From Lichenostomus cassidix (taxonomy: Eukaryota; Chordata; Aves; Passeriformes; Meliphagidae), in assembly GCA_008360975.2 (NCBI GenBank), contig CM039182.1, positions 14,666,324 through 14,730,323 of the forward strand: a stretch of DNA of 64,000 bases. The letters run 5' to 3'. Of this stretch, positions 4,326 to 63,940 are shown piece by piece (position 1 is the first letter of the stretch; every line of letters begins with the position of its first letter). The notes under the pieces were generated by a model. It worked only from the letters and a program-made list of their open reading frames with translations. It made no database searches and was not told where the DNA came from. The translations under genes and the position numbers were made by a program.

Positions 4326-4377
4326 CTTTTCATTTCCAAAAAATCTCGGTTGTTTGGTTCAAAGAGTTTTCTTAATT
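4326..4377 (-). CDS. SVIL: Supervillin exon with the conventional start codon, open upstream of it
   Basis: A 52-nt exon between TCTCAGTTTCAG and ATGAAAAG|gtaaaa. The ATG at 4333-4331 followed by AAA AG, with A from the next exon, gives MKR, the accepted supervillin N-terminus. The ATG has G at -3 (GAAATG). The 44 nt before it have no stop: two bases of a split codon, then LRKLFEPNNRDFLE. Those residues look like real protein, being charged and helix-compatible, and they run straight into [10 protein letters not shown]. Incoming phase is 1 (one base supplied by the exon before), which the 9204-9295 exon satisfies with a G to give Glu. Whether the upstream part is translated depends on the transcript. 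In a transcript from an internal promoter it would be 5' UTR. Confidence 0.92.
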
Positions 4378-7300
4378 CTGAAACTGAGACAACAAAAGAT
4401 TATGTAGTTTTTAAGACAGTAAGTTTAAGAAACTTGCTAAAAATGCTTTAGAATAAGAAGGAACAGTCAAATAAAGTTCAGAGGTTTGAAATAGCTTTTG
4501 TCAGGAAATGAGCATTTTCCTCGTTTTCCTGGTTTATTTAGGCTGTGCTGTTGAAAGTGCACTAGGCACATAGGTGTGACCACCAAGTAGTCCTCCCCTC
4601 CATGTACTTCCAGGATGATCTCAAATCTGCTATGCCATCTAGCAGTTTTCAGGATCTAGTATATACTGGACAAGTCCTATTTTGATTAGCTAAGGTCAAG
4701 CATACATACTCTAGTAACACATTTCAAAACCAGTTAGTATGGAAATTCTGTTTACCCTGTCTACCCTCCCCTACTCCCAAAGGTCAGGGACTGACTATGT
4801 TTAAAGGGAAGCAGTGTCCCCTATTCCTTACTTTCCTCCACACCCTTATATTGACCAAGAATTCCAGTGAATTCCCAAGAATTTCCAAGAAACCCAGTGA
4901 CTCACTGCTGAAGTGAAAATTACTGTGCACCATCATGATATTCCTGCATGGTTAATCACTTTCTATTTTGCAAATATAAGGGAATAACTTTCCCTTATAG
5001 TTTTAATTGGACACACTTTCATCCTCTTCCCCTACACTCTTTGCTGGTGTTAAGTGCTAGCAGACAGCTGCACAGTCCACAAAGCAGCAGTGAACTGGGA
5101 TGAGGCATGATGGATGAAGTAATCCCTATATATACACACACAAGTGCATGTGCAAACCACTGGAGCAGTGAGTGCTGCACAAATAAGTGCTGTGTGACTT
5201 CTTACCACCAGGAAGAGAAACTGTCCAGGCTGTCAAGGGAAGCAGTGGACTGGGCTGGGGGTGTGCCCAACATACAGACAGGCACATCCACACCCCCCCC
5301 CCGTATTGCTGCCTTGGCAAACATGTGGTGCTGAAAGCTGTGTGCACCTATTCTGAGCCAATGCACCTCTGGCATTCTAGAGGGATCAAAAGCTAGAGCA
5401 AGCCAAAGTCTAAGCCTGGTAAACTGGCCAGATTGCCACCAGAGGCACCTGATGAGTCAGGAGTGTCTAGTAGACACTGTTCCACTGCAGAGGTAAATCT
5501 ATCAGCTCTTTTTTCTTGCTAAGTATCTAGAGCATTTCATTGCTCTAGATACTTAGAAGATAAACATTATTGAAACACCACCCTTTTAAAGGTCAGATGC
5601 ACCTTTCTTCCCTTCCCTCTCCTGCAGGAACCTACATGCATGGCTTGGTCAGGGTTCCAGCTCAGCTGACTCATCCAGGAAGTTTGCTGTAGTCAATACC
5701 AGTGCTCATACCTCACAAATAACTATTGACATTGCCTGTCATATCAACCTGACACGCTGAAAAGCCTGAAAGTAGGACGACAGATAAAATGTGCTGGATC
5801 AGCAAGAGTGAACACATTCTGATCCTGAACCAACACCAAAGCAAAGATGAGCCCTTATGTTGTGTTTTCACAGACTTTCCTCTCAATGCATGAACAGTTT
5901 CCATTGTAGCCCTGCCTACTCAAGCTGTGCTAGCAGTGGACCTGTATGAAACAGAGAACTTACCCAATTGAAACCAGCCTTCATTTCAGATCCACGCCAA
6001 AGGAAATGATTTCTCATAAATACTTAGCTCTCACCTCCCCAGGTTTGCTTCTATTTAATTATGTTCCATCAGCTATTAAGTTTTTCTGTTCCATCTGTTG
6101 GCCATGTATACCTAACATTTTCTTTTGTCAAAACAAAACCCCATAATTGTCTGTCTTCAGACAAGTCAAAGGCCTCTGGAGCTCACAGTTAGTCAAACCA
6201 GACTCCATCCAAATCCTGATCCACCTTTTTTCCCTAGTCACCAGTTTATACAGTCACCAAAACCATAATCAGAGAACAGGTCTTATACACAGCTTTAGTA
6301 AAGCTCTAAATAATAGCTTCATTAATTAGCAAGTCTTCTTTCCCCCCACCCCCAGAAAAGGAAACTTGACTATAAGTTGTCCACATACAAGAAATGTGGA
6401 ACATCCAAAGAACTCCCAAAGCATTAGCTCAACACCCTCTTGCTACACGCTAGCTGAAGTTCCAGAGATTCTACCATCACTTTGCAGTCCTAAAAAGAGC
6501 ACTGATCTCATGAAAAATGTCTCCAACACCTTCCCAAACAACATGGGACAAGAATAGCATGGGACTACTCTATGCTGCCTTACACTTTTTCCAAGCTTGA
6601 GATTACAGAAGTAATTTCAGCTAGGTTGGCCAACATCTGCAGAATTTTTTTGTGAAAGCAGTTCCAGCAATATTCTTCTTTTGGTGAGGTGGGAAAGAAA
6701 AGCACACAAAAAGCAAAACCAAAAGAAGATAAAATGCAGAAAGTCTTCTACTCTACTGGTTTCTTTTTGATGAGTAAAATATTTCACTTAAAAACATGAA
6801 AACCAGTTGGAGACATTTCACTCCCAAGGACACTGGTTGGCCCTTGCAAACATAGGTGATCAGGTTCCTCCTTTTTAAGTCTGCAATTTGAATATGCTGG
6901 TGCCACTTCCCATCTCTTCACAGGATGTTTTCCCATCACAAACAACACCATGGCAGCACTAAAGAATAGCAACACTTCTGCCTAAATGGTAGCACAAAGA
7001 TCTGATTCAGCACACACGAAAAGACTAAGAAGCTTAAAATAATTAATTTCACGGTAAAAGCTCCTTATCTAGATTACTTCATGGCAACACACTTTGTAAG
7101 CACTGCTGGTCAGTTAAGGGCAAGGGGAAGAACAGCCACGGTTCAGTCACAGCCCTGAACTTGAGGGTTTATTTTAGGATGTTGAGCAGAATGCTATCAT
7201 AGGATACCCTCTAAGGTAAACAGCCAAGAGGCATCTTAATTTTGGTAACTGTAGACCTTCAAACCAAAATTTACCTTAGAACACCAGTATTTAGGAAAAA

Positions 7301-9203
7301 TGGTACTGTTCCATGTTTTGTCCCAGAATAAAAAACAAAAAGTACATTTACAGTGCACCTTATATTTTAAAAACTCCTCAAATTAAGGTGAAATATTACT
7401 TACAGAAATATATATTCATAGAACTATTTTAGAAACGTGCTACAGAATATAAACATGTTTATGCTGAAAGCCCTCTTTGACAGCTGCAGAGGGAAAATGT
7501 GAATGAAGTTGCAGCAATGTGACAGCAGTTTCCATTTTACAAAACAGAAGTTGTAACAACTCAATTAAGCCTTCAAAAAATTCATAATAAGAGAGCGAGC
7601 ACGTACATTTGTGAAGCCTAGATAGACACGGATCAAAAGGTTACCTGCCAGGGAATTAATTTCTCAGAGATGGTAAATAACCATTGCAACACAGATACAT
7701 ACATTTTCATTCTGAGGAAAATTTAACACAGTAGCAATGTCTACCAGGCTCATTCCTGCTTCTTCCTCTCCACAACTGGAAAGCTGATAGTCTTAAAACT
7801 AGGCTGGAGAAGCATTTATCTTCTGTTTATACCAGCAAAGGTTTATTGACATGTTCAATGCCCAGCTGCAGACCTCAGTTCAGACTGTATCAGTTGAAAA
7901 GCAAACATATTCCTTCAGTTTCTCAATATGTACAAATCTGGGTCAAAGTTAGGCTCTAGAAAGGACAAATAACCTGGATTTTCAAAAAGCTCTTTACTTC
8001 AAGTAGTTCCCTCAGAATGAAACCAAAAGCTCCCACTGCTGTTTAAGTCCAGTACACACCCAGTATGATGCCTCTATTATGAGAATATTTTTTTGAAAAA
8101 CAGAAACACTCTGGAATAGAAATTAGTTCACTGAGAGGCAACTTACAGATAAGGTTTCTCAAGTGGAGAATCAATTAACTTGCTGGCCACATGATTGTAA
8201 GGCTAAGTGTGAGGAATAATGAGGGACTCTGCATTTTACTGTCTGGTGCTCTCAGCAAGTCTGTGTTGTATAAAGACATATCACTCTATTCCATCATTCT
8301 GCCAACAAAGTTTCTTTCTGAACATCTGTAATGATTATATTTAAAAGCAAGCATGTTGCTTAAATAACACTTAAATGTTATGCGGAAGAAGTGCTCCTGT
8401 CTAGAGGAACTCTGCAACAAATAGCATTAAAAGAGCAAGCCAGTTCCTTTACGTTGGGATTAGAGCATTTAGCCTTGTCTGAAAAGGGTAAATATCACCA
8501 GAACATACACACACAAAATTTTAATCAAAGTTCTGAAGTCCACAACATCCTTGACTGATGGAAACATCTTTGTGCCAGTTGCACATAGTTCTTCAGTCAA
8601 ATGTCACCCTTTATGGGTCAAACAGATTGTGATTTTCTCTAAATAATTCAAGAGAGTTAAATTCTTGCCTCTACCTCAACAATGTCAAATAATAAAGATG
8701 GAAGTGCTGTTTTCTTCAGAGGTTATTCAGACTAAGATAGAAATTTGGAACAAAAAAACCTAAAAAAACCCCACAAACAAAACTCCATATGTACTGCAGG
8801 CCCTTTAGCATGCAAGACAAAAGACTCGAGTTGGTTAGTTGGTCAGTTGGTCATGCCAACCACCAAAGGGGCCTCGAAAGAGCCATGGCTCTTAACAAGT
8901 CAAGTTAATACTTTTGAACTCAGGATTAATCAAACTGTACAAAGAATCTCTGAAGTTTTGAATTTCAACTACTAACCTACTGAAACCAGGAAAACAAAGC
9001 TGAACTTTATAAAGCAGGGATGTAGCAAGGCCTTGTAAAAGAGCATTGTGGTTCATCCTGTTTCATACTTCACAGGGGAAAGAAAGCTCATTTACAAAAC
9101 ATCTGTGCCTAAGTGATTTTAACTATGCCTTGTACTTGTATAGACTAAACTTCATGAGCTGTTAAATTACTGTTTGTGCTCATAATGTGTCTCCCTTACC
9201 TAC
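4378..9203 (-). other. SVIL: SVIL intron (4.8 kb)
   Basis: AT-rich unique sequence between the 9204-9295 and 4326-4377 exons. It holds a perfect 16-bp hairpin at 5519-5556, a 10-base C run at 5293-5302 and short A-rich tracts near 8750-8780. The open frames are short and have no recognisable protein content. Confidence 0.75.
5519..5556. repeat. Perfect 16-bp inverted repeat with 6-nt loop
   Basis: The left arm CTAAGTATCTAGAGCA (5519-5534) is followed by the loop TTTCAT and the exact reverse complement TGCTCTAGATACTTAG (5541-5556). Pairing stops on both sides of the arms. It is too short for a microRNA precursor of usual size. No mobile element is recognisable around it. Confidence 0.9.
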
Positions 9204-9295
9204 CTTTCGGAAGTACTGCTAAGAGATTAGCATCAATATCCTTTGTGCTGTTCGCAAGTTCTTCTTTATCTTCAAATGAGAACTCCTTCTGGAAA
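9204..9295 (-). CDS. SVIL: Candidate upstream SVIL coding exon (92 nt), N-terminal extension
   Basis: Acceptor GTTGCTTTCAG and donor CCGAAAG|gtaggt bound 92 nt. In the frame that joins SVIL it encodes 30 codons, including FQKEFSFEDKEELANS and a segment ending LLAVLPK. The final G joins AA of exon 4326-4377 to make Glu, giving LPKELRKLFEPNNRD across the junction. The composition is protein-like: acidic and helical, with a hydrophobic end, and free of stops. An alternative acceptor 7 nt further in (TTTCCAG, exon start 9288) would give phase 0, but only the longer form fits the exon at 14361-14427. I recognise no domain. Membership in SVIL is inferred from phase and continuity; the known human protein starts further downstream. 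Confidence 0.8.
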
Positions 9296-12200
9296 CTGAA
9301 AGCAACATCTGTTTTACAGAACTGTGGATGTCTCTGCTACAAATCAAATAAAGCCAAGACACAACCAATTTGCTGCAAGATAGTTTAACAGAGATACCAA
9401 AGAAAATATTTTCCATAAGAATGAGCTAAGAAATAACCCAAAGAAACTCAGAAAGCCAAACCTAACATAATTTGAAACTTGTTTGGAACTGACTGTGACA
9501 CATTTTTGCATTAAATTACTGACTGGAGACTGCCTTCAAAATGCTCTACTAAATAATTACATTTAAAATAACCTATATTGAATGGTTCTTCATAAATATT
9601 AAAACATATGTCATCAAATGCAGTACGGCATGTACACTCCACCTAGAAGCCTTCTGCACGACTACCCTGTTGCTGTTACTGCACTGTTCTCTGGATCTTA
9701 CATGGTTTATAATATGCTAACATGAGTATCAGACCATTTAATTTTACACCATGTCTTTTCAAAGCAGGCAAAAGGCCCATTTAGATGAAATAAATTATTT
9801 CTTTAAATATCTTCATTAAATATACAATTTTTAATTGCAAAATGTAGGTGTCCTCATGGTCTACAGTAGATACTAACTCTCTTTCTTGAAAGAGACTTTC
9901 TTGAAGGAAGTGTTCCTCCTCATAAGCAAGAATTTTTTCTTAAAATTTTAAAAATAGGGAGCAAACGACTATATTCTGCCATTGTGACTTCTAAACTATC
10001 CCAGCTGGGCATAAGAAGTTTACTAAAACCTTTAGTAAACTGTGTAGACAGGTGTAACAGATACAAATCCTCACAGTGATGCCAGGTTCTTCATTTTGTC
10101 ACTGTAGTGATGTGCCATACGATTTAATGTCATTCTGATAAGAAAAACTGCACAGTCTTACTGTTGGAAAGTCCTTCCTTAGGACAGATTTTAAATGGCT
10201 TTTCTTTTTCCCCAAGGGTATGAATTCTGTACTCGCTATTTCTGAAGAACAATTCTCATTGAAAAGAGCTTTAATATATATTGACTAATAATATTTTTCA
10301 TAACTATATGCTTTTTATTGTCTATAAATAACATTCCTTTTGAAGATATTGAGGGGAAGAATAAAACCCTTGAAATGACAATGAAGAAACTGGGCTGTGT
10401 CACAACCAGGCACAATGCCACCTGCTGCAAATTGTCTCCAACAACTGCACTTAGAGAAATGATTCCAGGTGCTGCCAAGAAAAGCAATGTTAGCCACTAC
10501 AGAAAATAGCAAATAGAAGATGAAGAGCTGCAATAAGCTGTCCATTAGAGAGAACTATGTATCCTTACAGGGCAAACACACTGTAATTGAACTAAACAAA
10601 AATCAAAACACAATGAAAAAATGGCACACAGCAGCAAATGGATCCATGTGTCATCTGAGACTGGGCAGAGACTCAAGAGAGCTAACTGCATGTTTCTCTA
10701 TGTCTAACCCCACATTGCCAATGCTTGTGATTCTTACTAGTCTCACAGTATGTTATTTTCTTACAGACTCGTCTTCTGGAGAATCCCAGATGGAGAGATA
10801 CCCAGTTCCCATTTGAAAGCAGTTTCTACTCCTTTTAGCTGAGGATGAGTTTGAAAAATGCAAATAATATTGGTCTAAGGCTATAAACCAAGCCCAAATT
10901 TACTCTGCCAAATCAACTTAATTACTTAAGACAAAAGTGCTGCAGAATCCAGCTCATGACTTTTGAATATTTGGGCTTTATTTAGCAGTATCTCCACTTG
11001 CTTCTGTAATGCCTGTGACAGTGCAGCACCTTAAGTTTCCCCAAATTAGGGACTTTGTACAGGAAAACATTCACTCAAACAGCAAAATCCTTGTTTCAAT
11101 TAACTGTGCATAAACACCTACCATAATGCCTAATTCCCACATGAATTTCCAAGAGTAAAGTCACAGATTCAGGATTGGCACTAGCCTCCTGGTTCTAAAA
11201 ACAACTGTATTATTGGATTGCTTGTAAACTAGTTACATTCCCTCCTGCTCATCCCTCCAGGGAGTTCCAGGGACTTTGAAGGCAGAGGTCCTTTAAACCC
11301 TGTTAAATGTCTTTCACTGGGTTTCCATCCATTTGTTCTCCTGCCATTGTTGTCATTTACCTTGCTTATTTTTCTTAACAGAGGTTATCTACATGAACTC
11401 AACTTCCTCAAGACAGACTCTCCATTTCTTTATCTGTAAAAATGTTCTTTACTTACTCCAGTTTTAAGTAATCTTTTTTGTATATAGTGACCAGAACTGG
11501 GTAGTCTTGATTCCAGACTTGGGTCTTAGCAATATCTTATGAAAATAGGATTTTTAATAGAAAAAGCATTATTATATGACTAGCTAGCTGCATGCTGGGA
11601 TCTATAACATATTTGCCTTTTTACATATACACTATGTTGCTCAATCCTGCATGAGAAACTAATATGCAAAGGCTTTGCTTTCATCAGCTGCAAGTGACAG
11701 AAAAATTTATCAGCCCCCAATGCACCACTGTGCACTTAGTATTATTACATTACATCCTTTTTCTATTACTCCTCAAGGTCATCCAGTTCTTCCTGTATGT
11801 GAGCTCCCTCCTGCTTTGTACAGAGGGTGGCTTGCAACCTTTGCTCACTGGCAGATTTCATTAAAATTCCTTAAATAACCACAAACTTCCTAAGCTTAAC
11901 CCTCGCTGTGCAACACAGAATCACAGGTTATCTGCTTTGTCCAAGTCCCTTCATAATTTCCCTTATTTTCCCTCATTTTCCACTTCCCTCTGGACAGACT
12001 GTCAACCTTTACTGTTTATTTCTAAAAGATTACCAACTTTCATATACTATTTTATCCACAATTTAGGAGTTCTATCTCTTCAGATGTTTTTCTGCTCTGT
12101 CTTGCTAAGCTGCAGGTGGGATTGCTTGTTTTAAATGTTTGCACATGAGAAAAACAAAATGTTTTAATCCAATGTATAATTACATTGCTTTCCCATGCAC

Positions 12201-14360
12201 AGAGGATTCAGAGACAGCACTGCTCTGAAGATGATAGAGTCAAGCCAAACAATTGAGTATTTATAGACACATTCATCAAATTAGTTCTAAAAATGAAAGT
12301 AGGCATATTTAGGACATGTCACAGTGTTCAATAAGAACATTCATTAGGAATCTAAATTGAGTTGGAATGGTGCTAAAGCAATTCCAAATAGAAAAAAAAA
12401 ATTATAGGAGGCTACTCATCACCACATAAAAGTATTTTAAAAAACAAACTTGTAAGTAAATCCTTAACAAGACTTCCCTTTTTCCTCAAAGGGATCTATC
12501 CAGACGTTTCCCTGCTTTATTAGCTTCTCTGCTGGACAAGCAGTTGCAGCATCAATTCAGCTGCTGAAGCAGAGTCTGATAGCCAGAGTTGGATTCCCAA
12601 ATATATTGTACCTTCAAACTCACCCAAACCCCTCTTCTCGAAAGACCATAACTACATCTAGCCATGCTATAAATTCAGGTGCAGATTCTGAGCAGTAGCA
12701 CTATGAATTTCTGCACTTAAGAGCTTGGCTATGTACATTTATAATTAAAATAATTATGGAATACATGGGTTTCTCTAAATAAAAAAAAAGAAATCAGAAG
12801 TTTTCAAGAATTCTTTCTTAAAGTCCCCATTAAATCTGGATACTGAAAGATGAACATCTTGTCCTTTCCTTGCCTGAAATATAGCCTGTGATCATGGTTT
12901 AAGAAATGAAATCAACAGCATGAGTTTCCACCAGTTTGCTTCACAAAGGATTTGTGTGTGGCTTGGCCTCAGGGTCCTAACAAACTCATAAAACTCTCCA
13001 ATGTTCAGGAATTCAGATGATTCCTGTTAAAACACAGGCAACAGCATTTCACAATCTCAATGGTTTTACTTTAAAAACAATGTGTAATGTAGCATTAGTA
13101 GAGTATTTGACAGTCTCTGTAGTTACACTGTTCTGGCAACTTCCAAAGTGAGAGTGAGCTTCATTCTGTACATCAGGGATTCCAGGCTGAAAACTTCATC
13201 TGCTGCTGGAGCAGCAGCAGCATATGGTTTCTAAATAGCTGCCCCACTAACCTAGTTACATGCCCAAAAGCAACCAGAAGTTTGATCCAAATGCCACTGG
13301 TAACACTGACCTGCCATCCCAATTAAAGCTGTGGCCTATACCGAGATTTTATGATTAAAATACAAAATCCCCTTGTACACCTGCCAGCTAGGTGCTTGGT
13401 GTTCTCTTTTCTTATTTTTCTCTACCTCCAGGAGAATTTCCTTCCCTGGACTCTTATGTAAAAGGTCCATTTTACAGTCACGTCCTTCTCTGCTACTCTC
13501 ACTGCTACTTTCCCCTGCCTGCTTTCATAGCAGTGTGTCTTGCACACCTATTCCCTCCAGCTCTCTGCAGGACCTATGGAACAACAGCAGGGAACCAGGT
13601 GTGCTCTAGCCTGTGCACTGACTGAGAAGAAGCTTGCAAACATCAGCTTGTGCACCTGTGGCAGGTGGATTCCTGTGCAGCTGAGCCAGTGAAACAGCTG
13701 GTGCGGGGGCAAGAGTCAATCCCCACCTCCTGACCTCCTCCTGTGCCACTATGAGTGAGCCCAGCAAGCTCATGTGGACACCAAAAGCAGCTGGAGAAAG
13801 GATGGGAAGAGAGAGTGAATGTGACCTGCCATCTTGCTTAACTGTTTAAGTGTACCCCCTTACCAGCCTTGTGGAACTGTGCCCTAAGAATGCAGACAAG
13901 GAGGCAGCACAACTCTGCATGGAAGCAACACCACCTGTCCATTCACCTCTGCAGTGTCCCCCTTCTCCTCTGTCCCCCAGATTGCTCCATGCAAGGATGT
14001 ATAATGAATTCATCCACTGCAGCCACCTGCTTTTCCAGACAGGTAGGTGTTCCAGGCTGGTTCACACTGCACCTCTACTCTGTCCATGCCATGCAAGGAA
14101 AAATGGGCACTGCAATGGCAGGAGGCTCAGTGCACAGTGGGACTTTTCCTTTAGTAATGTCAGCTATAAATTTTAACATTATTTAAGAGGCAGTCGGTGT
14201 TTTCAACACTTTTTCAGAGCATCTGCTCAACGCAAAAGCTTGGTCCCATGAGAGGACCAATAATTACTTTTCCTGACAAAAGAATAAAAGTAGATTTGAA
14301 CAATGATGGAAAGTTACTGCAACCAGTCATCTTCACTGGGCTAAAAAACCTGGACCTTAC
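9296..14360 (-). other. SVIL: SVIL intron (5.1 kb)
   Basis: AT-rich intron with a 10-bp perfect inverted repeat at 10018-10040. A stretch at 13600-13980 is somewhat richer in G+C, but I found no splice-bounded open exon in it. Other frames, such as 98 aa at 10520-10816 and 108 aa at 13850-14176 on the plus strand, do not look like protein. Confidence 0.7.
10018..10040. repeat. Perfect 10-bp inverted repeat, 3-nt loop
   Basis: GTTTACTAAA, then ACC, then TTTAGTAAAC. It is a short hairpin of AT-rich composition within an SVIL intron. It may be a chance structure. Confidence 0.85.
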
Positions 14361-14427
14361 CTTAATGCTCTCTTCCTTAGGAGCAATCGTGAAGGCTTAA
14401 ATCTGACTGAGTTTCCTTTGGCAAAAT
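14361..14427 (-). CDS. SVIL: Candidate upstream SVIL coding exon (67 nt), basic segment
   Basis: The acceptor is excellent, a long T-rich tract ending ATTTCACAG, and the donor TTAAG|gtaagg is strong. In the SVIL-joining frame it gives AT of a split Asp codon, 21 codons (FAKGNSVRFKPSR, then LLLRKRAL), and AG, which takes T from exon 9204-9295 to form Ser. The segment is strongly basic (KPSRLLLRKR) and could act as a nuclear-localisation-like or membrane/actin-contact patch, but that is inference. A second frame is open for 16 codons and ends at a TAA (14379-14377). It belongs to the 178-residue chance frame that spans the exon and the intron upstream. Confidence 0.75.
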
Positions 14428-17290: not shown

Positions 17291-17343
17291 CTTGCTCCTC
17301 AGAGAATTTAACATTTCCCAAATAGCTGGAGATCCAAGGATTT
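17291..17343 (-). CDS. SVIL: Candidate upstream SVIL coding exon (53 nt); in-frame ATG at its acceptor
   Basis: The acceptor has a T-rich tract ending CATGTTCAG, and the donor is GAGCAAG|gtaaga. The SVIL-joining frame gives A (completing Arg), then NPWISSYLGNVKFSEEQ, then G of the Asp codon completed by exon 14361-14427. The sequence just before the acceptor reads ACC ATG TTC AG, in the same frame. A transcript beginning nearby and not using this acceptor would therefore start MFRNPWISSY, with A at -3 of the ATG. Both forms place the same Arg. A second frame is also open here and contains an upstream ORF starting at 17314. The exon is the first after a 38.5-kb intron. I know no homologous domain. 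Confidence 0.74.
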
Positions 17344-17707
17344 CTGAACATGGTTGCACAAACAAAGGATTCAGCAAAGAGAAACTACAATAGCAGCTAA
17401 TTCTCCACCAGCCACAGCCCTTAGGCCTGTCTTAGCAATATCGTGTAGAGATTTTTCATAGCACAGGACTGGAGCTGTCAGGCTATCGCGTCCCAGGGAG
17501 TACAGTAAATGCATAGCAATAGGCTGCAAGCCGGAGCAGCTCAAGCCAGTAATCAGATTACAAACAGAAATTAGGCACATGAATGCTAAAACAGATTGGG
17601 CAACGGTGATTGGGAGATTTATAATATTACCACTTCAAAGATCCAGCCAAATCACACATTATATTCCTGCAAAATGAATGCAGAACTCCTAAATGTCATA
17701 TTAAGAA

Positions 17708-17755
17708 ACCAACCAAACAAAAAAAACCCCAAAAACAACAACAAAAGAAAAAACG
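17708..17755. repeat. A-rich low-complexity tract
   Basis: A run of A with scattered C (AACCAACCAAACAAAAAAAA and similar). It is simple sequence without an attached recognisable element. Confidence 0.8.
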
Positions 17756-24959: not shown

Positions 24960-25460
24960 CTATTTGCCGGGCAGGCTCAGAGTGACAGCTGGGCTCAGCA
25001 GCAGCAGCAGCAGCAGCAGCAGCTCGCTGTCAGCGCCGCGGTTCTGGGTCGCCTCTCGCGGGGCGTGCGCTGGATCCGTTCTGGGCTGGCGGCTCTCACC
25101 CGCAGCATGTTCTGTCCCCAGACACGGCTGCTCAGCTTGCCTAATAAGGCCACACGCCAGTTGACTGGCTGGCTTATAGGTCACCCAGTGTTTACCTTGC
25201 GAGCCGGCAGCAGCTGGAGCTCCCAGCCCTCCTCCGCTCCGGGCAGCGCTGCGCATCAGCCCAGCGCCGCTCACGGCTCGGGGGGACACGCTTTGGTTTG
25301 AAACTGCAGGGAGTTCAGGTACAGCTGCCACCACGGCACACTGTAGGACCGCTAGACTGAAAAAATAATCGGGTTTCTCACTGCGTGAATTGCTTGAAAG
25401 TAGGGCAGCGGCGAAGGTACGAAAAGCCACCTTCACAGCGGCAAGGCGGCAGACAGGTAC
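24960..25460 (-). promoter_or_regulatory. SVIL: CpG island, probable internal SVIL promoter and first exon
   Basis: This is the only CpG-dense stretch in the window, with more than 35 CpG in roughly 430 bp (about 25020-25450), while the flanks have almost none. It is GC-rich and holds a (CAG)9 run. On the minus strand two good donors could end a first exon: CTCGCAAG|gtaaac (exon end 25196) and CTGCGG|gtgaga (exon end 25100). No acceptor is needed if transcription starts here. Plus-strand donors also exist (TTCAG|gtacag near 25318, ACAG|gtactt near 25456), so divergent transcription is possible. Spliced to the downstream exons, the first SVIL-frame ATG would be the conventional one at 4333, which fits a promoter for the known protein. 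The 158-aa minus frame 24960-25436 (poly-Leu from CTG) is not credible as a gene. Confidence 0.7.
24996..25022. repeat. (CAG)9 trinucleotide repeat
   Basis: Nine uninterrupted CAG units on the plus strand (CTG on the SVIL sense strand) at the edge of the CpG island. It falls just beyond both donors proposed for the first exon, so it would be intronic or in promoter-proximal sequence. Confidence 0.97.
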
Positions 25461-26991
25461 TTGTCAAACACCAGAACCAAGGGAACTAGATGAAAGCAAG
25501 GTAGAGATACTCATTTGAGCACTACTGTTTAATTATTTATTACTCTTGATCAGTTATGGTGAGATTTGCTGCAATTCAGACAGATGGCTTCAAAGGTAAT
25601 GATTTACCCTCCCCAAAAATAGCTGTCTGGCCAAATAATAAAACCCTTCTTCTGCTGCTTCCCTTGTGATTCAGTCTATTTTCTCCTTTACACCTCTCCT
25701 AAGGCAACTTCAAGATGCTAGATTTGGATACTGTCCTATCCTCTTTCCCAGCACAGTCTGTGAGGAAAGCCACGAGGCTGCTGTGCAGTTAGAGCTGGCA
25801 GACAGAAGAGCAGCACGGGTCACCTCCTGTCACAGCACTGCCACGAGACCCCTGCAAGGGGCCACTCACAGTGGCTGTTCCCTTCAGGTCAGTACAGACT
25901 GTGCATTTCCATCCTCCACCAAAACCACCTTGTAAGGTTTAAATACCCACCTAATACTACCAGATACAATGATGTATTTATCACATGATTCAGCTTGAAA
26001 AGTCTTGACCTCAGGGAGTACAACTAAATTATGATTATTACCCCACTGAAGTAACCAAACTACCATAGCTATGTCCTGTTCCTGCAATAAACCTGAGGTT
26101 CACACTATTATAATTAAAAGAGATAGAATATATGACCCATTCACTCTTAAAACAGTGCATGTTAAAAAACAGCTGACAGTTTGTAAGCTTAGCCATTATA
26201 ATTTTGGGCTGAAGCTGTGCCCAGATGCTCATACATATCTTGGCTCAGAATTGCTGACTTTCTGCTCAAAGTCTGTTCTCACCCAAAATATGCTTCACCT
26301 ATACAAAGAGGGACAGTTAGACATGATTACACAAAGGTAAGCCCCAAAATAAGCTAACTCACTTTGTGTCCAATTTGCTTAGATCAGCAGCACAGTATGC
26401 TCTTATGCATATCAATAATGAATGCTGGAGGAAACAAAACAACAACACACAAGGAATGAGAACTGCTGTGTGTGCATTAGACATGCCAAGAGTTTAAGAA
26501 GTCAAGATAGCCCTGAACTATGAAAATCAGTCACACTTCACAGAGAAAAGCTACTGGACTTGCACTACCTGCTAGAGGAAATGGGTTCACCCATTTGCTT
26601 CAAGTCTCTCTGAATACACACTGACAAATCCAAAGTATTAGGGGAACACTACTTCTCTTGGTTAAAAAGGAGAATCTCAATAAACTTAGGCAAATCCAGA
26701 AGAGAACACTCTGACACCCTCACAGGTGACTGCTTATTTGACACCAGTTGATTTAGGACTGTTTGTGTAACTGCACACGAGCAAAGGCTTTTGAATGCTT
26801 TTATGCTCTCACAGTTTTAATTTTAAATGGGATATAATGTTACAGCTGACTTTTCTCCATTTTAACACTCGCATTTTCCATCTTTGCTCGCAGACATGAA
26901 TTTCAAGACAGGCTTCAGGAAGGAATTTTGGAAACACAGCAGTATCTCCTTCCCTATGCTAAAGAATGGTGGGGGGTGGAATAGAATAAAC

Positions 26992-47525: not shown

Positions 47526-47601
47526 AGGCTGGAATAAACCCACTCGCATTTCAAGCTGACAATGCTGTGAATATTCTCAAACAACTGGCTCGAGCAACTG
47601 C
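47526..47601 (+). repeat. Diverged 76-bp direct repeat, copy 2
   Basis: Partner of 47028-47103, 498 bp downstream in the same orientation. This copy keeps more CpG (CACTCGCATT against CACTCACATT), although copy 1 has ACAACG where this one has ACAATG. The similarity fades at both edges. Confidence 0.85.
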
Positions 47602-49574: not shown

Positions 49575-49602
49575 CTTGAACACAAAAAGAGTCACTAATT
49601 GC
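49575..49602 (-). other. SVIL: Splice-bounded 28-nt segment, possible alternative exon
   Basis: An excellent acceptor (GTTTTGTTATTGTCTTTGCAG) and a fair donor (TCAAG|gtatgt) enclose 28 nt. In the frame after exon 55821-55908 it reads Arg, then QLVTLFVFK, and ends in phase 0. That does not fit exon 17291-17343, so inclusion there would shift the frame. It may be a cryptic or noncoding exon. Confidence 0.25.
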
Positions 49603-50833: not shown

Positions 50834-50865
50834 CAGCATCCATTGTTAGAATCATGACCCCACTT
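50834..50865 (-). other. SVIL: Splice-bounded 32-nt segment with ATG, possible alternative exon
   Basis: The acceptor GCTTCCTGCTTCCTGGGACACAG-type tract (ending GGGACACAG) is pyrimidine-rich, and the donor GATGCTG|gtaagt is strong. The 32 nt contain two in-frame ATGs (MILTMDA) and end with one base of a codon. That phase fits exon 14361-14427 (giving Asp) and exon 4326-4377 (giving Glu, MDAELRKLFEPN), so it might begin a shorter SVIL isoform. It does not fit exon 17291-17343. Confidence 0.33.
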
Positions 50866-51106
50866 CTGTGTCCCAGGAAGCAGGAAGCCTTACCCATCCA
50901 GTGTATGCGAATGACTCAGAAGGACAGCATGGCTTTGTTTCAGCTTATATCTTCTGGCTCATTCACCCCTCCTCCCCTTTGTGGGATAAAAGTGTTGCCT
51001 GTGCCTGGCCATCCCCATTGGCTCAGCTAGGGGAACCTACTCATTTAGCACATTCAAGTTTCTGTGAGAGCCTAAAGTGACTCACAGAGGAGTTTTTATT
51101 TATCTT

Positions 51107-51169
51107 AAAAAAAAAAACCCACCAAGCACCAACAACATTTAAAAAAAAAAACAAACCCAACACAAACAC
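51107..51169. repeat. A-rich low-complexity tract
   Basis: Two A11 runs separated by CA-rich sequence. Nothing else is recognisable. Confidence 0.8.
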
Positions 51170-54100: not shown

Positions 54101-55820
54101 GGGAAAACTTGAACCCATTCATCTGAAGACTATATCCAAATAGCACGTGGCTTAGTTGTCAATGTCCAGCTATATCACATCAAGTGTGTAAATTGCATCC
54201 TGTTAAACTCTAGTTCTGTAAATTCTCTACTAAAATAACCTGGTTTTAGTTGTTGATTTTTTAAAATACAGCAGAATACTCATTTGCATGGTCTAATAGC
54301 ATCAATCTTCTGAAGGTTACAACAATTTTATGATGGTATATACTAAAAACAAGCTCAGCAAGAAATTCTCTGAAGGCTTGACTTACTTGAGTCTTTGTTG
54401 AAAGAAGTTAAGTCCATATTACCCTTAAAAAAGCTAAATTCCCATGACTGTTCACATAATTTTCAGTACCTGCATTAGTGTTGTAAGAACACACTACTGC
54501 TGTTCACCTTCATTAAATTATTCACTGTATAGAAAGTATGCAGCTAATAACTGTGATGTGATGTGCTGGCTCTAAGATTTTTGGAGGAGACTTTATTCAT
54601 ATGCTTTAATTCTGAATTGTCAAGATTCAGTTCATGTTTTCCATGATCATACTCCAAGCTCAAATCTTCAGGAATCAAGGTTGGGTTTTGCTTTTCTGCA
54701 AGTCCTTCCAACTTTTCAAGCTTTCTAGCATGTGTAAGAGTAAGCACTGTTCCCAGTCCCTTATTTCTTTGTAAGTAAGATGTTAAAACCAGCAGAAGAT
54801 TTCATTCAAACTTCCACTCTTTACACTGTATTCTCCCAGACTTCAGAAGCTATGACAAGTTGCAAGGAAAACAGCTCTCACATAATTCTGGAGCAACAAC
54901 TGAAGTGGTGCCTTCCATACCTCTGAGAGAAAACATAGCTATGTGTGGCAAGAGAACTAATAGGATGACAGCTCTTGCCTGGCAGTATGACCAGAATTAG
55001 ACATCAATTCTCTTTTAGGAAGGTTGAAATATAGATCATCTATGTACTGATTTTGCTGATGCAAACCAGTGAGACATTACTGATCACATCCAAGAAATCA
55101 CATCTCTCCAGTAACAAAAATTAACAATTCTCCAAGAGCAAGATTAATCCCAGGCATTACAAAAACTTTGCCTTTGTGGGACCAACAGAACTTGCAATGC
55201 ATGTAACATACACAAAAAGGTCCCTTTTGTTGTTGGTTTGTGTTCACATTGGGAAATGCTTTTCCATAGCCAAGAACTGAAAAAAAACCTGAAACAAATC
55301 TAAACTGCAAATATTTAATTGAAAGTCTGCAACATGAAGTGAGCAACATGAAAAAGGTACAGACCTGTAATTAATTAGAATATTACATTTGAAGGAATCA
55401 AATGTACATAGTCTAGAATGGTTGAAGGTATTTTGTTATACAATATTTGGAAGAAGGAATAATAGGAAGGCTGGAACAGGAGGTTCATCTTGGCTGCCTG
55501 TTGCCTCTCAGTGAATACTGAGATGAAGTTTCAGGAGCTCCTATTGTCACTTTATATTGAATAACATTTCTTTCCAAGGCAGTATTAGCATTTCCTAGGT
55601 ATTTAAATACCAATCAGCTTTTCTGAAGGTCCTAAGGTCTACTCTTGAATCTTAACTACCATATCACTGCACTTTATTAAGCGACATATATACTAGGAGG
55701 CACACATGGCTTCTTTAAATGTTTGATACAAACAACTCCAGGAAGAAAAAAAAAAAGAAGAAAACTAACAGCTCATAGTTCTTGGTTCACATCTGCATCT
55801 ATTTTTCAGCAAAGGCTTAC

Positions 55821-55908
55821 CTTAAATCCCAGCCATCCAGGCCTGACCCTCTAGGTACAGCTGCATCACCTTGTCCAAGTGGCTCCCAATCCGAAGGCAG
55901 TGCTCCTC
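55821..55908 (-). CDS. SVIL: Candidate upstream SVIL coding exon (88 nt)
   Basis: The acceptor (GTTGTGTTTGTTTCTTGTAG) and donor (TTTAAG|gtaagc) are both strong. In the SVIL-joining frame it contributes GA (completing Gly), then 28 codons beginning GALPSDWEPLGQGD and ending GSGLDGWDL, then AG completed by A of exon 17291-17343 to give Arg. The segment is Gly/Asp/Trp-rich and probably disordered. A second frame is open too (EEHCLRIGSHLDKVMQLYLE, ending in TAA one base before the exon end) and looks at least as protein-like locally. The first frame is preferred because it alone continues into SVIL and connects upstream to exons 59400-59454, 61293-61353 and 63906-63940. Confidence 0.72.
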
Positions 55909-58900
55909 CTACAAGAAACAAACACAACCAAGTATGGGTGAGAACCACAAATGCATCCCAGGGTATGACAACCATTTCAGAACTAGCAGGAAGATGCACA
56001 AAGGAGATAAACTGATTGACTGCAAGGGATGAAGCAGCTTAGAGCATATTGCTACCCTGCCCATTCATATAGACAAGATCATCACCACAGGCAGCAGCAC
56101 TCTTCAAAGCCCAGCTATGGATGCACTGCAGCCACACTCACAGAGAAAGAAAGGTCTTGCAGGTTTCCTAGGAACCCCAAGGAACTTGACCTTCCACAGT
56201 TGCTAGTCTGACCCTCTAATAGGAGACACTCTTGAACTACCAACTTCTCTAGAAACTCTCAACTTTCCCTTAGCCACCCCACAGGAAGTCTGTGTTAGTC
56301 TTCCAACAAGGTCAAGCAGCACCTGAGATAATAACAAAACCACCAGAATCTGCCAAAATACTTTACCCTCAAAATCTTTAATTTTAAACATCAGTGGGTG
56401 CAACTGAAAAAGCCAGTTCTCTTTCTAGAACCACAGCAATCAGGAGACAGACCCAAGACTTGTAGTGCAGAACATTTGACCTATCAAGCAGTTCTGCAAA
56501 CGCCACCTGCCACACGGCCTGAATTCTGATCCCCACACCTTGAACAACTGGTTTGATTTTCTTTGGCAAATACAAACCACCTCTAGCTGTGCCTGTAGCA
56601 TTAATTGCAGGGTGATTCAGCCCACATGGATACTCATGTTGATGAAGTATCCAAGTTAGATGGTTTCAAACTAGCTGCATTATCCCAGCACCGCGTTGTC
56701 CTTAAAGACACCAATTCCTTGAACTTACAGAAACTTAAAATAACCAACTACTCCAGGCTTCTTACTCTGTTCTGTACCATATGCAGTTGTTTCTTTCACC
56801 TGAGCAGTGAAGAGTTCTCCATTGCAGACCTGAACTACCTGAAGCAGTCATTGCACAGATTATTGTCTCCCTCCTCTTACAGCTGGTAAGTGAAATAACA
56901 TTTTTACTCTTGCCCAGCTCAGGCTCGACTCACCTGCATATGTTTAGATGCCAAATATATTGCTTTCACTTTCATAACTGCTTTATTCAACTTGGGTTTT
57001 TTTAATCTATGAGGAGGTACAAAATGAAGTCATGGTATCCTGTGTGACTAGAGCAACAACTTTCAAGTGCAGTCAGGTCACTGCTCTGCTTCCTGCAGCT
57101 GCTGAACATGTCAGACTCTAATAACAGCATCTAGAGAAGAGGTCAAAACAAAAATAATTCATTGAAAAGACAGATATGATAGAAATTTTTTCTGACTGGG
57201 GAAAACTAATTTTGGAAGACAAGCAGACCCCCAAACACAGACTACCTTAGAATGCATGAGAACAGGTAGGGCAGCAAATCAGTCTTGTTCCTAATGTTAT
57301 GTAGCTGTTCACAACAATTGAACTAGGCCAGCTTTTAAGATCTACCCACATTTATCTCTGTGTTCAGGGAGGAAACTAGCTTAAAGTTCCAAGAACATGA
57401 TAAACCACATGCTGTTGTTTTAGCATTTCCAACTTCAATTCCCCTCAAATGAGCATTCCTGTACATTAGAAGGGTAAATGGGTGGCACTCACTTCAGTCT
57501 GGTAGGAAAGGAGAGGAAAAATGATAGTCAGCAATGGACAGCTGAAGAAAGAGAAACTAGTTATTCCACTATCACATAGTTCTTGGTTCTAAATTCCTTC
57601 TTGCTACTTAACTGTAGGGCTGCTTGTTTACTTCTGCTGTTCCTACTTTATTCCTCTTTACATATCAGTATTTTTAATAAAAACAGAAAAGAAAGGATTG
57701 GAAATCCAGCTATAGTTTTGGTCAACTACTTCACAGATTTCCTGGAAGTAACTGTGAAGTGGGAAGAGGGAACATTTACAATGCATAGAACACATTAAGC
57801 CTGGTGCACACTACCACTGTCCCACTAATACATTTTATTAACTCATTTTTTGGGGCAAATTCCTCTTTTTTTTTTTGGCAAATCCTACATTTGTGTATTG
57901 GAACAAGAGAGAGAAGACTGGGGTGCTGCAGTTTTGAAGGCCTGCAGCTTTGAAGTCTGCCAAAGCCTTCCTTTTTAAAGGAACCTTAAATAACTGGTGT
58001 AAGTTGAAATATCTTGACAGAGTGGTTTGGGTTCTTTTTAATATATTTACATGTATTTGCCTATGTGACTATATTCTTCAAATCTTTGATAGTGCCAGGA
58101 GTCTTATAAGAAATTTTGGCAAGAACACATGACAAGACAAACATAAGGGATATAGAGCACCTACCAGGAAACATTTGAGATTGAAATCAAAATGCGAGGG
58201 CTGGCAATTGAAATCTAATCTTTTCAAGACTGACCTTGAGTGCAACTTTTTGTGCTCTCTCTACACTTCATCTGAGAAATGCCTGGCAAGCCACTTGAAC
58301 TGTTTGTCTGATAAGCCCTGTATTTTGAGAGTTTAGAACAAAAGCAGGAAAACACACTCCAAATACTAATTTTTGCCCTCTTGATGGACTCTTCTTTATT
58401 ACACAGACAGATTCTGGAATGAGTCAGTACATCATGAAAGACAGACATGAAAATATCATTTGGATACTTGATATTATGAACTAAAAAGAGGGGCTAGTGG
58501 GTAATCATCTCTGCTTAGCCATAAAGATCCATAATTTTTGATCCAGGAGAATAATCAAACTTACATTTCTTCCAGACAAATATTCTTCTAGGTGCAGATA
58601 CCATCAAGATTTGGACTGATTTAACACTTGACAGTTGACCCAAGAAAGACTGTCACTATGTGCACAGATATAGAGCTGCTCTGCAAGAATCTGCAGTGCT
58701 CCATCAGGCTGTTCACCAGGCTGGCTACAGGACACCTACACCACCTTCTTCACTTCAAGATAAGCCTCCTAGTTCCTGAGGTCTTACACGTAGAACAGAT
58801 TTTGAAGAGTTTCACTGAAACAAATTAGGGTTGCGTCCCTTCAATCAGAAAAGGATAGGAAAAGGAAAGAAATTTTTGAGATGTTTTCTTTGTTGCCTAA

Positions 58901-59399
58901 AGACTTAGATCACATCAGTTTTGCAAAGCCATCACCTCCTCAGGCTCTTGCCCAGCCAAATGAAGCCTAACACCACAGAGATGTTTTGATGAAGCCCCAT
59001 TCTGCAAAGCCTTGCTACATTTTCATTTTTTACATTAAAAAAAAAGATGCAGCCTGGCAAAAGCTGGGAAAGAGGTGGAGGAGTACAATATCTTCCCTGT
59101 GAAGCCAGGAATTCTCACAGAGAGTTCAATTAAACCAGAGTCTAGCAGCTCCTTCACACTATCTCAGCTGAGGTGTTACCCCTCCTAATGCTCCAGAGGC
59201 ATGTAACAAAACATACTGGGCAGCAGCCAAGTGCAAAGAGATTTTCAGACTGCTGGTTTTCCTTTGACTATGTCGCCTCCCACTTCCACTTCACAAAAAA
59301 AATAGGCCACAAAGATGTTAATCAGTGCAAATCTAGGTCTCATGAACACTCAGAATATCACTTAAGAAATGCAAAATTCCACTCCACGCCTGCACTTAC
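55909..59399 (-). other. SVIL: SVIL intron (3.5 kb)
   Basis: AT-rich intron. It contains a strong acceptor and donor only 6 nt apart at 57493-57498, and an isolated strong donor ATGCAG|gtgagt ending at 56934 with a weak acceptor tract before it. A plus-strand acceptor-like TCCCTCCTCTTACAG lies near 56868-56882 and is followed by CTG and GTAAGT. No repeat family is recognised. Confidence 0.6.
57493..57498 (-). other. SVIL: Possible 6-nt microexon
   Basis: The acceptor tract TTTTTCCTCTCCTTTCCTACC plus AG is among the best in the window. It is followed by ACTGAA and then GTGAGT, a strong donor. Read after exon 59400-59454, inclusion would give GAC then TGA, a stop. It could therefore act as a poison microexon, a recursive-type splice point, or nothing. 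Confidence 0.25.
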
Positions 59400-59454
59400 C
59401 CTCTCTGTTGGAGCAGCCCTGTAAACTCTTAACACCCCATGTTCTTCCATTTTT
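59400..59454 (-). CDS. SVIL: Candidate upstream SVIL coding exon (55 nt)
   Basis: The acceptor GAGTTCTTCTGAAATGCCTCAG (here given as its last bases ATGCCTCAG) is fair, and the donor AGAGAGG|gtaagt is strong. The frame that joins exon 55821-55908 starts in phase 0 and reads KNGRTWGVKSLQGCSNRE, plus G completing Gly. An overlapping frame contains an ATG (59450-59448) and reads MEEHGVLRVYRAAPTER into the second frame of exon 55821-55908. The phase-0 start fits the phase-0 end of 61293-61353. The small size and moderate acceptor make this one of the less certain links in the chain. Confidence 0.6.
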
Positions 59455-60003
59455 CTGAGGCATTTCAGAAGAACTCTACACAAGAATAACAGGATAGAGG
59501 CACTCTTGTTTGTAGCCAGAAAACACTCAAGAGCTCAAATCCACCCTACTGGGCTTTTTTTCACCATCTTACTTAAACTGTCATTTGCAATGTCATCTGC
59601 CCCAGTCAGCAGGACTCTCCTTCTGTGCACTTCCTTCCCATTTCACCTCACATAACACTGCTGTAGCTTGACCATCTGCTCTAGTGCCCCTGCCCAATGA
59701 TGTCTGCAGAAGAAATCTCCTTTCACACATTCCAGATGTTTAAAGAAACTTATTTTCTGGAGAACTGAAGAAGACGTACTGAGGAAAGAATCTCTACAAG
59801 TATTGTGACAGAATTGTACCTGACTGTGCTTTCCTCAACACCCAAAAGTGAAGCCACCCACCTGGAAGTTACCAGCTCAGTGCTCAGGAAGCTGACACCT
59901 ACTCTAAAAATAATAGATGCATGTGCAATTCCCCCACTATGCCCTTAACAGGCACAGTGAACAAGCTAAGGATGACTCCTGTAAATACACACTGGCATGT
60001 GTA

Positions 60004-60031
60004 TTTGGTTCAGAAATGCATCTGAACCAAA
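60004..60031. repeat. Perfect 10-bp inverted repeat, 8-nt loop
   Basis: TTTGGTTCAG (60004-60013) pairs with CTGAACCAAA (60022-60031). It is a short hairpin in an intron. Confidence 0.85.
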
Positions 60032-60131
60032 AAGTCATGGTATTGCAATGAAAGATGAATGTCTGAGGTGCACACTGGAGCAACTGATTGTGCATATTCA
60101 CACCTACCACATCAAAGTACTCCTACTGACA

Positions 60132-60155
60132 CTTGCCTAATATTTGTTAGGCAAG
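60132..60155. repeat. Perfect 9-bp inverted repeat, 6-nt loop
   Basis: CTTGCCTAA (60132-60140) pairs with TTAGGCAAG (60147-60155). It lies about 100 bp from the preceding hairpin. Confidence 0.85.
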
Positions 60156-61016
60156 GAGAATTAAAAGTAGGAAGCTCAAAAAAGTCTTTTAGCCAAGAAA
60201 GTCACAAGACACTTTAATGTGAATTTTTTTCCACAGTAACAGGCTACAGTTTCTCTTAGAATCTGGTTTCAAAGTTGATGAAATAGGATTCTGCAAGAAA
60301 CTCTATACCACAGCACAGAAGCTCCCATCATACACTGACCTCTAGTGTAATAAAGACTCAAAACATCAGAAGTCTCTTTGAAGGCTTAGAAAATTATAAT
60401 TTTTTTTTCCCAGCACTCTGAAGAACATTTTCATGTAATAAAACAGACTGAAGTCACAAGGGCTTCCCAGGATTACTCTTAATTGTTTAACAAAACTGGA
60501 GCACGGGTTAAAGAAGCTACAGAACTTAAATAGTTTTAGGGATGTGAAGTTGCTGCTGTGTTTACATAAAGTAATTCACATCAAAGCTGCATTTAACTAC
60601 TTTGAAACAAGCTGAATTTAACACCTACGCATTCTGAATGCACAGATTTGTTTCCTAACTACAGTTTCACAAAGCTAAATTAAAAAACATTTAATATAGA
60701 AACATTCAGATTGGGCAAGTCCTGTATCAGACAGATCATTATTAGATCACCCCAAATTCTGCATCAGACTTCCAAAGAGCCTGTAGACAGAGCTGCTGGC
60801 TCAGATGTATTTCCTGTAGCCAGCACTGAAGACACAGAGTTTTCTGGAAATAAAATATAAAGAATATAAATATAAATATATGAATAGCTCCTTGCTCCCT
60901 GAAGACACAGGGCTCACAGAGGTACATGGGGGTGGCCTCTTTGCCCAGGCAGCCTGGGGTGAGAGAGTGGCTGCTTGGTTTGGATTAGCAGCTTTTGAAA
61001 AGGGTAAAAACATTAC

Positions 61017-61068
61017 CAAGCAACCAACCAACACCAAACAAAAACAAACAAAAAAAAACCCCAAAAAA
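61017..61068. repeat. A-rich low-complexity tract
   Basis: CAACCAACCAACACC grades into A/C-rich sequence. It is similar in style to the tracts at 17.7 and 63.0 kb. Confidence 0.8.
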
Positions 61069-61187
61069 TTAAGTTAGCTTCAAAAACTGTCAGCTTAGGA
61101 CTCACACAAAAAGTTTTCCCCCAGCTTTTAATATTAATGAATCTGCATTTTGTTGTGGGCTAACTAGAGTTTTATAAGAATTACTTG

Positions 61188-61208
61188 ATTAATTAATTAA
61201 TTAATTAA
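61188..61208. repeat. (ATTA)5 microsatellite
   Basis: Five tandem ATTA units, self-complementary as TTAATTAA. They lie 85 bp from the donor of exon 61293-61353, inside the following intron. Confidence 0.95.
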
Positions 61209-61292
61209 CAAATTCTAAAAGAACAGAACAATTGAAATGGATGCCCAAATTATTTAGGTCTTCTCTGCCACTTCTGTCCACTCCCTACTCAC

Positions 61293-61353
61293 CTGCCTCT
61301 GGACAACAAATTCCAGAGATGCTCCCTTTACTTCAGACCATTTCTCACACCTC
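61293..61353 (-). CDS. SVIL: Candidate upstream SVIL coding exon (61 nt)
   Basis: The acceptor ATTCCCTTCTTTTAAAG and the donor AGAGGCAG|gtgagt are strong. Only one of three frames is open. It takes G as the last base of a split Arg codon, then reads 20 codons with RCEKWSEVKG and ends EFVVQRQ in phase 0. That fits the phase-0 start of 59400-59454 and the two-base overhang of 63906-63940. The residues are charged with an amphipathic strand. No domain is recognised. Confidence 0.63.
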
Positions 61354-63905
61354 CTTTAAAAGAAGGGAATCATTCAGAAGCTTCTTTTCAAGTGAAGTGA
61401 TATTTTCAATGTGAGCAATCTTTCCCAAGTCTGAAAAGCAGGCATGCATGGCAATGTTGGAACAAGAGCTTTTGCATCCACTCTAGAGTAGAAGCTCTTA
61501 TAAGCTTCTTATAAGCTCTTGTCTTTTGAACAAGATTTCAAAAAGCTCAGAAACATCAAATTCAGAAAGAGCTAAGCACAGCATGAAAACAGCCATCATA
61601 ATATGTGAGGGAAGTTTTCAGCAATCGTGTCAGAGGTAGATGTTTGAAACTAAGTTCATATCAATGAAAAGAGCCTTTATATTTGCAGTCTCAGATTTGA
61701 GTCTGTGAAGATAAACTAAAAAGTGAGGACTGAGTTTTTATTACTGATTTCTAGCTGTGAATACCAGAACTCGACAAACCCTTATCTGTAATGGCAATAT
61801 CTGAAAGATAGCTTAAAATTACTGAAAAACCTCACTACTTAATGATGTGTTCAAACCTACACAGTTTCAGACCACTTCTGAAATACAACTATTAATTAAT
61901 ATCTGCTTCTCTCCTTCTGCACAGCAGTGAGCTTTTTACCAGCCCTACACCTGAGTTCCACCTCAGCATCACTTGTGACCTGCATCCTGACTCCGATTTT
62001 TGGATATACTGTATCCTGTAATCTAATGCTAGCAGTCTCTCCTGCCAGACCAAGGTGATAGCACCAAACAACACTTCATTACAGGCTGTAGTGAAGTACA
62101 GCACCCTTCATGCAGTTTGGCAATCACTCTAGAAGAATGAGGACTTCTAGCTTCTGCCCCAGAATGCTTCCAGTCAAGTCTACCCATAAGAATTGCTTTT
62201 GTTTTCTTTTCTGTATCATGGTTATTTTATAGCCAAGAACTCTTACTGCAGCTATAGCATGGAGACAAACAGCAGCAGTCAGGATTTACAAGGATATTGG
62301 TCACCAAATTAGAACATTTCAGGCAGAGTTGTGAATAAGATTCATGCTTTAATACGAGAGATCCTGGCTTGAGCCACTTGGCCACACTTTGTTTCCAACA
62401 CAAGGAAGCCAACTTAGCCACCTACTTACCTCACCTACAGCCCAAACATCACTCAAATAAGAAACTACATTGAGAAATCCCTTTATTAGTTTATTAGAAA
62501 TTCCTTAAGGGTTTAGCCTTCTGCTAAACTCTAATTTCTATCCAGAAAACAGTTTGCCACCAACTAGGAAAGCACAATAGCACTCTCCCAGCTCCAAGGG
62601 AGGAGCAGTTGAGGCACAGAGCACACCAGACCTCTGAATAAGTGACTGCAGAAATGTGTGAGTGAGCTCCAACAGCTTGCACAACAGATCCTTCCCATTG
62701 TATTTGACAGAATGCGTCCTTCCAACTATTTTTTTCTCTAAATTCTTGTATTTAATTCAATGCATGTGGTGAGGGGAATGACTTTCAGAACAGTGATGTG
62801 CACCAGTACACAGATGTTCCACATTTGTCATGTCACATGAACCTTGTGGCTAACACCCAAACTTTAAAAGTCTAAAAAGCCTCCTACATAAAAATCCACA
62901 TGATATATTTGTTCCTAGAAGAACATCAGACAACATATTAGATTGCTAGAGACAGGTTTTTCCAATAGTATCCATCTTGAAAAAAAACAAAACCAAAGAA
63001 CCCACCTGCAGCAAGCTTTCTTTGATTTCAAGAAGTTAAAAAAAAACCAAAAACATACAAAACCAAAAAAACCCCAACCAGATGCAGAAATTAAGACAAG
63101 TGGTAGCTTGACAAAATTTATCAGAGCTAGGAGAAAGCCCTTCAAATTGAATTAACTGCAGTGTATTGTGTAAAGAAAATGCACATATGTTACATCTGAT
63201 CACATCCAGCATATTTTTTGGCTAGCCCTTTTTCTAAAGAAACTTTAAAAAGAAGTGACACACACAGCTTCATAACCAGCACAGAGCTCCAAAATCTTCA
63301 CTCAAAACAGTTTCCTAGTTTCTTTCCTCTCAAATGAATTCAAACAAAAAAAAAAAGCATAGAAATTGATGCTAGAATACATGACCTAAGCCCTCAGACC
63401 CTTACTTTCAGAATGGCTTTTGTAAAGTAAATAGCTCAAAATTCTGTGCATCCAGCAATTCCTGTGCCCAGGATTGGTGAAATGCTCCATTCCAAATTCT
63501 GTATTAAACCACTGGTTAAGTGTCAGCTGCAGATTGTGTGAGTTATCCAGCAACTGTGACCAACTGTTTTTTTACCAAATTGGCAATATAATACCATGTA
63601 ATAATTTGTTTCAGGCATTAACTCCTGAGCTGTCTTTATTAAAAGGCATTAGTCTTTATATAGAAATGTGCTGTAGTTGACAGAACACTGTCCAACCAAA
63701 AACCACATTTCTAAGGGAAGATTAGCTCAAGTTAATTATGAATTCCTCATGAAATGCACCCAGTTTACACCTGAAGATCTACAGTTATGACCAGCTCACT
63801 ATGTTTGGATTTTGGCATACACTAGAAAGCATCTATTAATTCATACATCAGTATTTGCAAACAAACAATAAATTCAAGTAGAATAAATCTAAAGCCACTT
63901 CCTAC
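61354..63905 (-). other. SVIL: SVIL intron (2.6 kb)
   Basis: AT-rich intron with an A-rich tract at 63037-63080 and tandem TCTTATAAGCT units near 61496-61517. A splice-bounded segment near 62430 ends at the strong donor GGTGAG|gtaagt and is open in one frame (SYLSDVWAVGE), but its phase does not fit the neighbouring exons and its acceptor is weak. Confidence 0.6.
63037..63080. repeat. A-rich low-complexity tract
   Basis: A runs interrupted by CC pairs (AAAAACCCC type). Simple sequence. Confidence 0.8.
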
Positions 63906-63940
63906 CTGTTACTGCATTTGACAGGCCTGTGGTCAGCACC
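63906..63940 (-). CDS. SVIL: Candidate upstream SVIL coding exon (35 nt), most 5' in the window
   Basis: The acceptor AACCTCTCTTGTGTTGTACAG is excellent and the donor AGTAACAG|gtagga is good. Read in phase 0 it gives GADHRPVKCSN plus AG, which takes G of exon 61293-61353 to form Arg, continuing into RCEKWSEV. The junction places two Cys close together (CSNRRC). It contains no ATG in this frame, so the start codon of the extended product, if real, lies beyond the window's right edge. The short length limits confidence; a second frame is also open here. Confidence 0.58.

Follow-up and report, generated by a model that had tools for sequence, protein, structure and literature searches.

The best-known human supervillin forms are numbered from a methionine opening the sequence MKRKERI, a numbering that would omit part of the bird protein. 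Mammalian supervillin and archvillin (SV1–SV5) come from the same gene as the one analyzed here and have the N-terminal core and the following exons in common with it. An account of the mammalian isoforms, in excerpt, mentions no upstream start (PMC6192639). Excerpts of other papers report that the supervillin N-terminal region binds myosin II and F-actin, cite a study describing an 830-residue disordered N-terminus, and place SVIL in chicken hair cells (all PMC4944918); they also list a turkey supervillin-like gene among those richest in splice events (PMC13215552) and an unannotated human SVIL exon validated by RT-PCR, its position not specified in the excerpt (PMC4878813). Among the titles and abstracts of one open-access library, a scope outside which most subscription papers lie, we found no description of the N-terminal extension treated below.

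We analyzed a 64,000-nt stretch of Lichenostomus cassidix DNA (assembly GCA_008360975.2, contig CM039182.1, positions 14,666,324 to 14,730,323 of the forward strand), referred to below as the window. On sequence comparison, the window holds the 5′ part of the bird SVIL (supervillin) gene on the minus strand, and the gene is an ordinary SVIL gene. The conserved N-terminal core of supervillins, ...LLEEDTPRY and SKAERIARYKAERRRQL, is present in the window gene, and the long-form bird layout, with one of two first exons followed by three further exons in frame, is found as well. The gelsolin repeats and the villin headpiece are indicated indirectly, through downstream matches of the Cyanocitta cristata supervillin P0121. 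Every one of the 20 scored matches of this protein (from 141 first-look candidates) fell on the contig and strand of the window gene, in a series running from the window to the match of residues 2233–2287 of 2313 at 14617080; the families PF00626 and PF02209 are precomputed on the P0121 protein entry and do not derive from the DNA of the window genome itself. The known supervillin exons E5 (4050–4201, ending ...YSPHL) and E6 (2964–3627, RSNEEEETSDSS...SNTRQ) lie on the minus strand. No Pfam family was found for positions 2960–3640 or for the 167-residue extension proposed in an earlier note on this DNA, and nothing in the PDB matched a 135-residue N-terminal piece by sequence. Positions 1–1925 look like the remnant of a CR1-type retrotransposon.

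Upstream of E5, sequence comparison makes it close to certain that the 5′ part of bird SVIL is built from two alternative first coding exons, E1b and E1a, and three common exons, E2–E4, encoding a tail of 90 or 91 residues. All five lie on the minus strand. E1b (50834–50897) reads MGKASCFLGHRSGVMILTMDA plus one base of the next codon, its ATG being at 50897–50895, and the coding part of E1a (17291–17351) reads MFRNPWISSYLGNVKFSEEQ plus one base, with the ATG at 17351–17349. The two exons, at 50.9 and 17.35 kb and 33 kb apart, would each provide a start codon, each with an in-frame stop upstream, and would both splice to the one acceptor at 14427. From there, E2 (14361–14427, DFAKGNSVRFKPSRLLLRKRAL), E3 (9204–9295, SFQKEFSFEDKEELANSTKDIDANLLAVLPK) and E4 (4326–4383, VSELRKLFEPNNRDFLEMK) would continue in the same phase to the previously accepted start methionine, which is carried by E4 and sits at residue 91 or 92 once the tail is counted. 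The predicted products are supervillins with a mostly disordered tail ahead of the mammalian-style start. Splicing by script gave an E1a form of 364 and an E1b form of 365 residues, both free of stops. Among the best 120 of 3371 proteins, the E1a form was matched best by P0121 (351 of 366 aligned positions) and the E1b form by at least six proteins, from Corvus hawaiiensis and Cyanocitta cristata (353 of 367).

These comparisons come from two homology searches. The first used the proximal frame together with the known exons and returned 159 proteins, of which 120 were considered, 32 inspected and 17 aligned. The second, with an X-padded query limited to residues 1–210 of the corrected N-terminus, returned 3371 proteins; the best 120 were used, all of them birds by label. 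As the latter were ranked by score, the sample favors carriers of the extension, and forms starting at MKRKERI would come lower in the ranking and are outside the count. Predicted gene models make up many of the matched entries, and the models of different birds can have errors in common. Within this sample, mean identity of the matching proteins to the window was 0.94 for E1a, 0.99 for E1b, 0.91 for E2, 0.99 for E3 and 0.98 for E4. Bird models such as Cyanocitta cristata isoform 6-T6, Gallus gallus X19 and Taeniopygia guttata X15 have the same E2–E4 and start with MFRNPW or MGKASC; over the part compared, the NCBI and UniRef bird models differed from the window by substitutions and small gaps only, with no structural difference.

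The first exons account for all starts in the sample: MFRN opened 49 of the best 120 of 3371 and MGKAS the other 71, and Cyanocitta cristata carries both (P0121 for the one; P0182 and P0189 for the other). The peptide of E1a opens with MFRNPWISSY, and 11 codons 5′ of its ATG there is an in-frame TAG, at 17387. The earlier note, which had joined eight minus-strand exons into one frame, considered that frame open at its 5′ end; the TAG closes it. Its piece 17291–17343 is genuine SVIL coding sequence, with a wrong 5′ edge placed at least 8 bases too late; the acceptor chosen at 17343 falls on the head of the E1a frame (ATGTTCAG, Met-Phe-Arg). E1b was absent from that exon set. Its 21 residues agree at every position with those opening bird supervillins (21/21), its donor is GTAAGT, its splice phase into 14361–14427 is the same as that of E1a, and an in-frame TGA at 50918 lies 6 codons 5′ of its ATG. 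A short upstream frame, ATG CTG TCC TTC TGA, is also seen ahead of E1b.

Two stop-preceded first coding exons feeding the one acceptor at 14427 have the arrangement expected of alternative first exons, and probably of alternative promoters. The 71 carriers of E1b in the best 120 of 3371 belong to species that we recognize as passerines. A first exon gained in passerines, giving a lineage-specific supervillin start with its own promoter, is a tentative and rather doubtful reading of this distribution; E1b forms from birds outside the passerines would probably score too low to enter the best 120 of 3371. The sole segments with a CpG observed/expected ratio above 0.5 were 25001–25500 (GC 0.61, ratio 0.74) and 25251–25750 (GC 0.47, ratio 0.54), and the CpG-rich patch 25001–25750 is a possible, putative SVIL promoter.

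The common exons are found throughout the bird sample. E2 had an ungapped match of at least 70% in 120/120 of the best 120 of 3371, and its acceptor and donor ranked 11 of 4830 AG and 8 of 3920 GT dinucleotides. E3 reached the same level in 113/120, and the remaining 7 carry a one-residue deletion inside it. Its acceptor at 9295 is weak (score 1.0); a stronger one (8.7) at 9288, 7 bases inside E3, is unused by the best 120 of 3371. E4 was again matched in 120/120 of this sample. All 120 read VSELRK, placing the beginning of E4 at 4383 and adding Val-Ser to the exon 4326–4377 of the earlier note, which is real coding sequence cut six bases short. The two positions mark tandem acceptors 6 bases apart (4378–4383, minus strand), with Val-Ser in or out. 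Since the frog protein P0025 is without the Val-Ser pair, both acceptors may serve among vertebrates. One bird protein, the sole entry with a 118-letter start among the best 120 of 3371, has 21 additional residues inserted between E2 and E3; judged by 88% identity, it is probably Limosa P0169. By eye, about 14208–14275 on the minus strand resembles this P0169-type piece, and a TGA breaks that frame here.

Outside birds, the first search found sequence 5′ of the accepted methionine in the fish proteins P0017 (paddlefish), P0027, P0032, P0036, P0039, P0040, P0043 and P0054, as well as in frog P0025, mole P0015 and the mammal-like short-contig proteins P0008, P0009, P0011, P0012 and P0016. Ray-finned fish (paddlefish P0017, Eleginops P0040, Liparis P0054, Alosa P0039) have an E1a-like M(F/Y)RNxWIS and E3–E4 as in the window, whereas their E2 is strongly diverged from it: P0017, P0040 and P0054 begin with MFRN, the latter two reading MFRNPWISSY, and P0039 contains MYRNPWISNY with more sequence upstream. 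E3–E4-like sequence also occurs in frog P0025 and, among mammals, in mole P0015 and the mammal-like P0008, P0009, P0011 and P0012, with another stretch occupying the place of E1a/E2 in P0008 and P0015.

This distribution bears on whether the upstream exons are translated. They could be transcribed as 5′ UTR only, with translation from the accepted methionine (residue 91/92) and an upstream frame open by chance, in keeping with the mammalian numbering and with one short bird model, P0001 (labelled partial), that is given from this methionine. However, the upstream peptide is kept in frame from birds to ray-finned fish, its own start MFRNPWISSY included, and across E1a–E4 the matching proteins of the best 120 of 3371 retain high mean identity to the window, which leaves untranslated exons a very small chance of being the explanation.

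Translated alternative first exons followed by E2–E4 agree with the earlier note that supervillin has a longer N-terminus, read in the frame of the accepted start, at a length of 90–91 residues rather than about 165. The note also thought this N-terminus likely to be undescribed, a view that the entries of many birds in NCBI and UniProt/UniRef overturn: on sequence comparison, the extension is not new, being already in public gene models. Its caution that existing gene models might hold the form was borne out. Among the seven exons that it had placed upstream of 4326–4377, 14361–14427 and 9204–9295 have correct borders and 17291–17343 is real, and the four distal pieces (55821–55908, 59400–59454, 61293–61353 and 63906–63940, minus strand) found no protein match at E ≤ 1. 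When residues 1–82 of its frame, comprising the four distal exons and two further residues, were searched, 15 candidates shared words with the query and none had an E value of 1 or less. Against the genome of the bird itself, the peptide of the note gave five matches at E ≤ 0.001, all within the window.

The case for the eight-exon frame had been that a stop-free, in-phase chain of this length exceeds chance expectation. The chain does have AG/GT borders and 167 stop-free codons, and the other two frames of the joined exons contain several stops. We computed the longest phase-matched open chains by dynamic programming, with simple splice scores from approximate frequency tables. With lax thresholds, matched to the weakest of the seven upstream exons, the longest chain had 20 exons on the minus strand and 17, 17 and 14 in the three phases of the plus strand, and it averaged 11.9 (range 5–29) over 40 first-order Markov windows. 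Under stricter thresholds, it came to 10 on the minus strand and to 12, 14 and 12 on the plus strand, while the 40 Markov windows gave a mean of 4.0 and a maximum of 9, with at least 7 exons in 5/40. Since the plus strand yields 12, 14 and 12, the stricter excess over the Markov windows is not specific to the gene strand. The claim to exceed chance thus fails, and an in-phase exon chain alone is no evidence of coding. The note had itself warned of selection bias, correctly: its way of choosing exons, by splice signals and open reading frames, produced both the distal exons and an open 5′ end as artifacts.

A coding role for the full eight-exon frame, as an extension of about 165 codons open at its 5′ end and reaching 63940 or beyond, has next to no probability: its valid borders, 167 joined codons and good scores for several distal donors and acceptors are set against the chance occurrence of such chains on the opposite strand and in Markov windows, a frame that crosses a conserved start codon preceded by an in-frame stop, and a distal part that found no relative, none of nine short words from it occurring in 240 fetched proteins (0/240), a count that is weak alone, as these proteins were found via other parts of the frame. 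The four distal pieces were accordingly rejected as coding exons, given that chance chains are common, that no protein matched these pieces at E ≤ 1 and that they lie upstream of a start with its own upstream stop. They may be 5′ UTR exons. More generally, by-eye chains of in-phase exons carry little evidence, and it is homology that shows which three of the upstream exons are real and which four are false.

In the corrected gene model, this bird supervillin can begin at either of two starts and carries a conserved tail of 90 residues. An AlphaFold2 model was made for the paddlefish homolog P0017 (17 sequences), not for the bird protein, and had a mean pLDDT of 53 and a pTM of 0.24. Low-confidence helices covered part of E3–E4 (residues 48–78), and residues 16–44 fell below 50. 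For P0017, the model gives no confident prediction of a stable fold and says nothing beyond that; it fits the disordered N-terminus cited in an excerpt of PMC4944918. The tail would extend a supervillin N-terminus that is already disordered and binds myosin II and actin, and it is most likely a flexible extension with short putative motifs. Through such motifs it may tune membrane or cytoskeletal targeting. One example is RKRALS, a basic stretch ahead of a serine, which resembles a candidate site for basophilic kinases.
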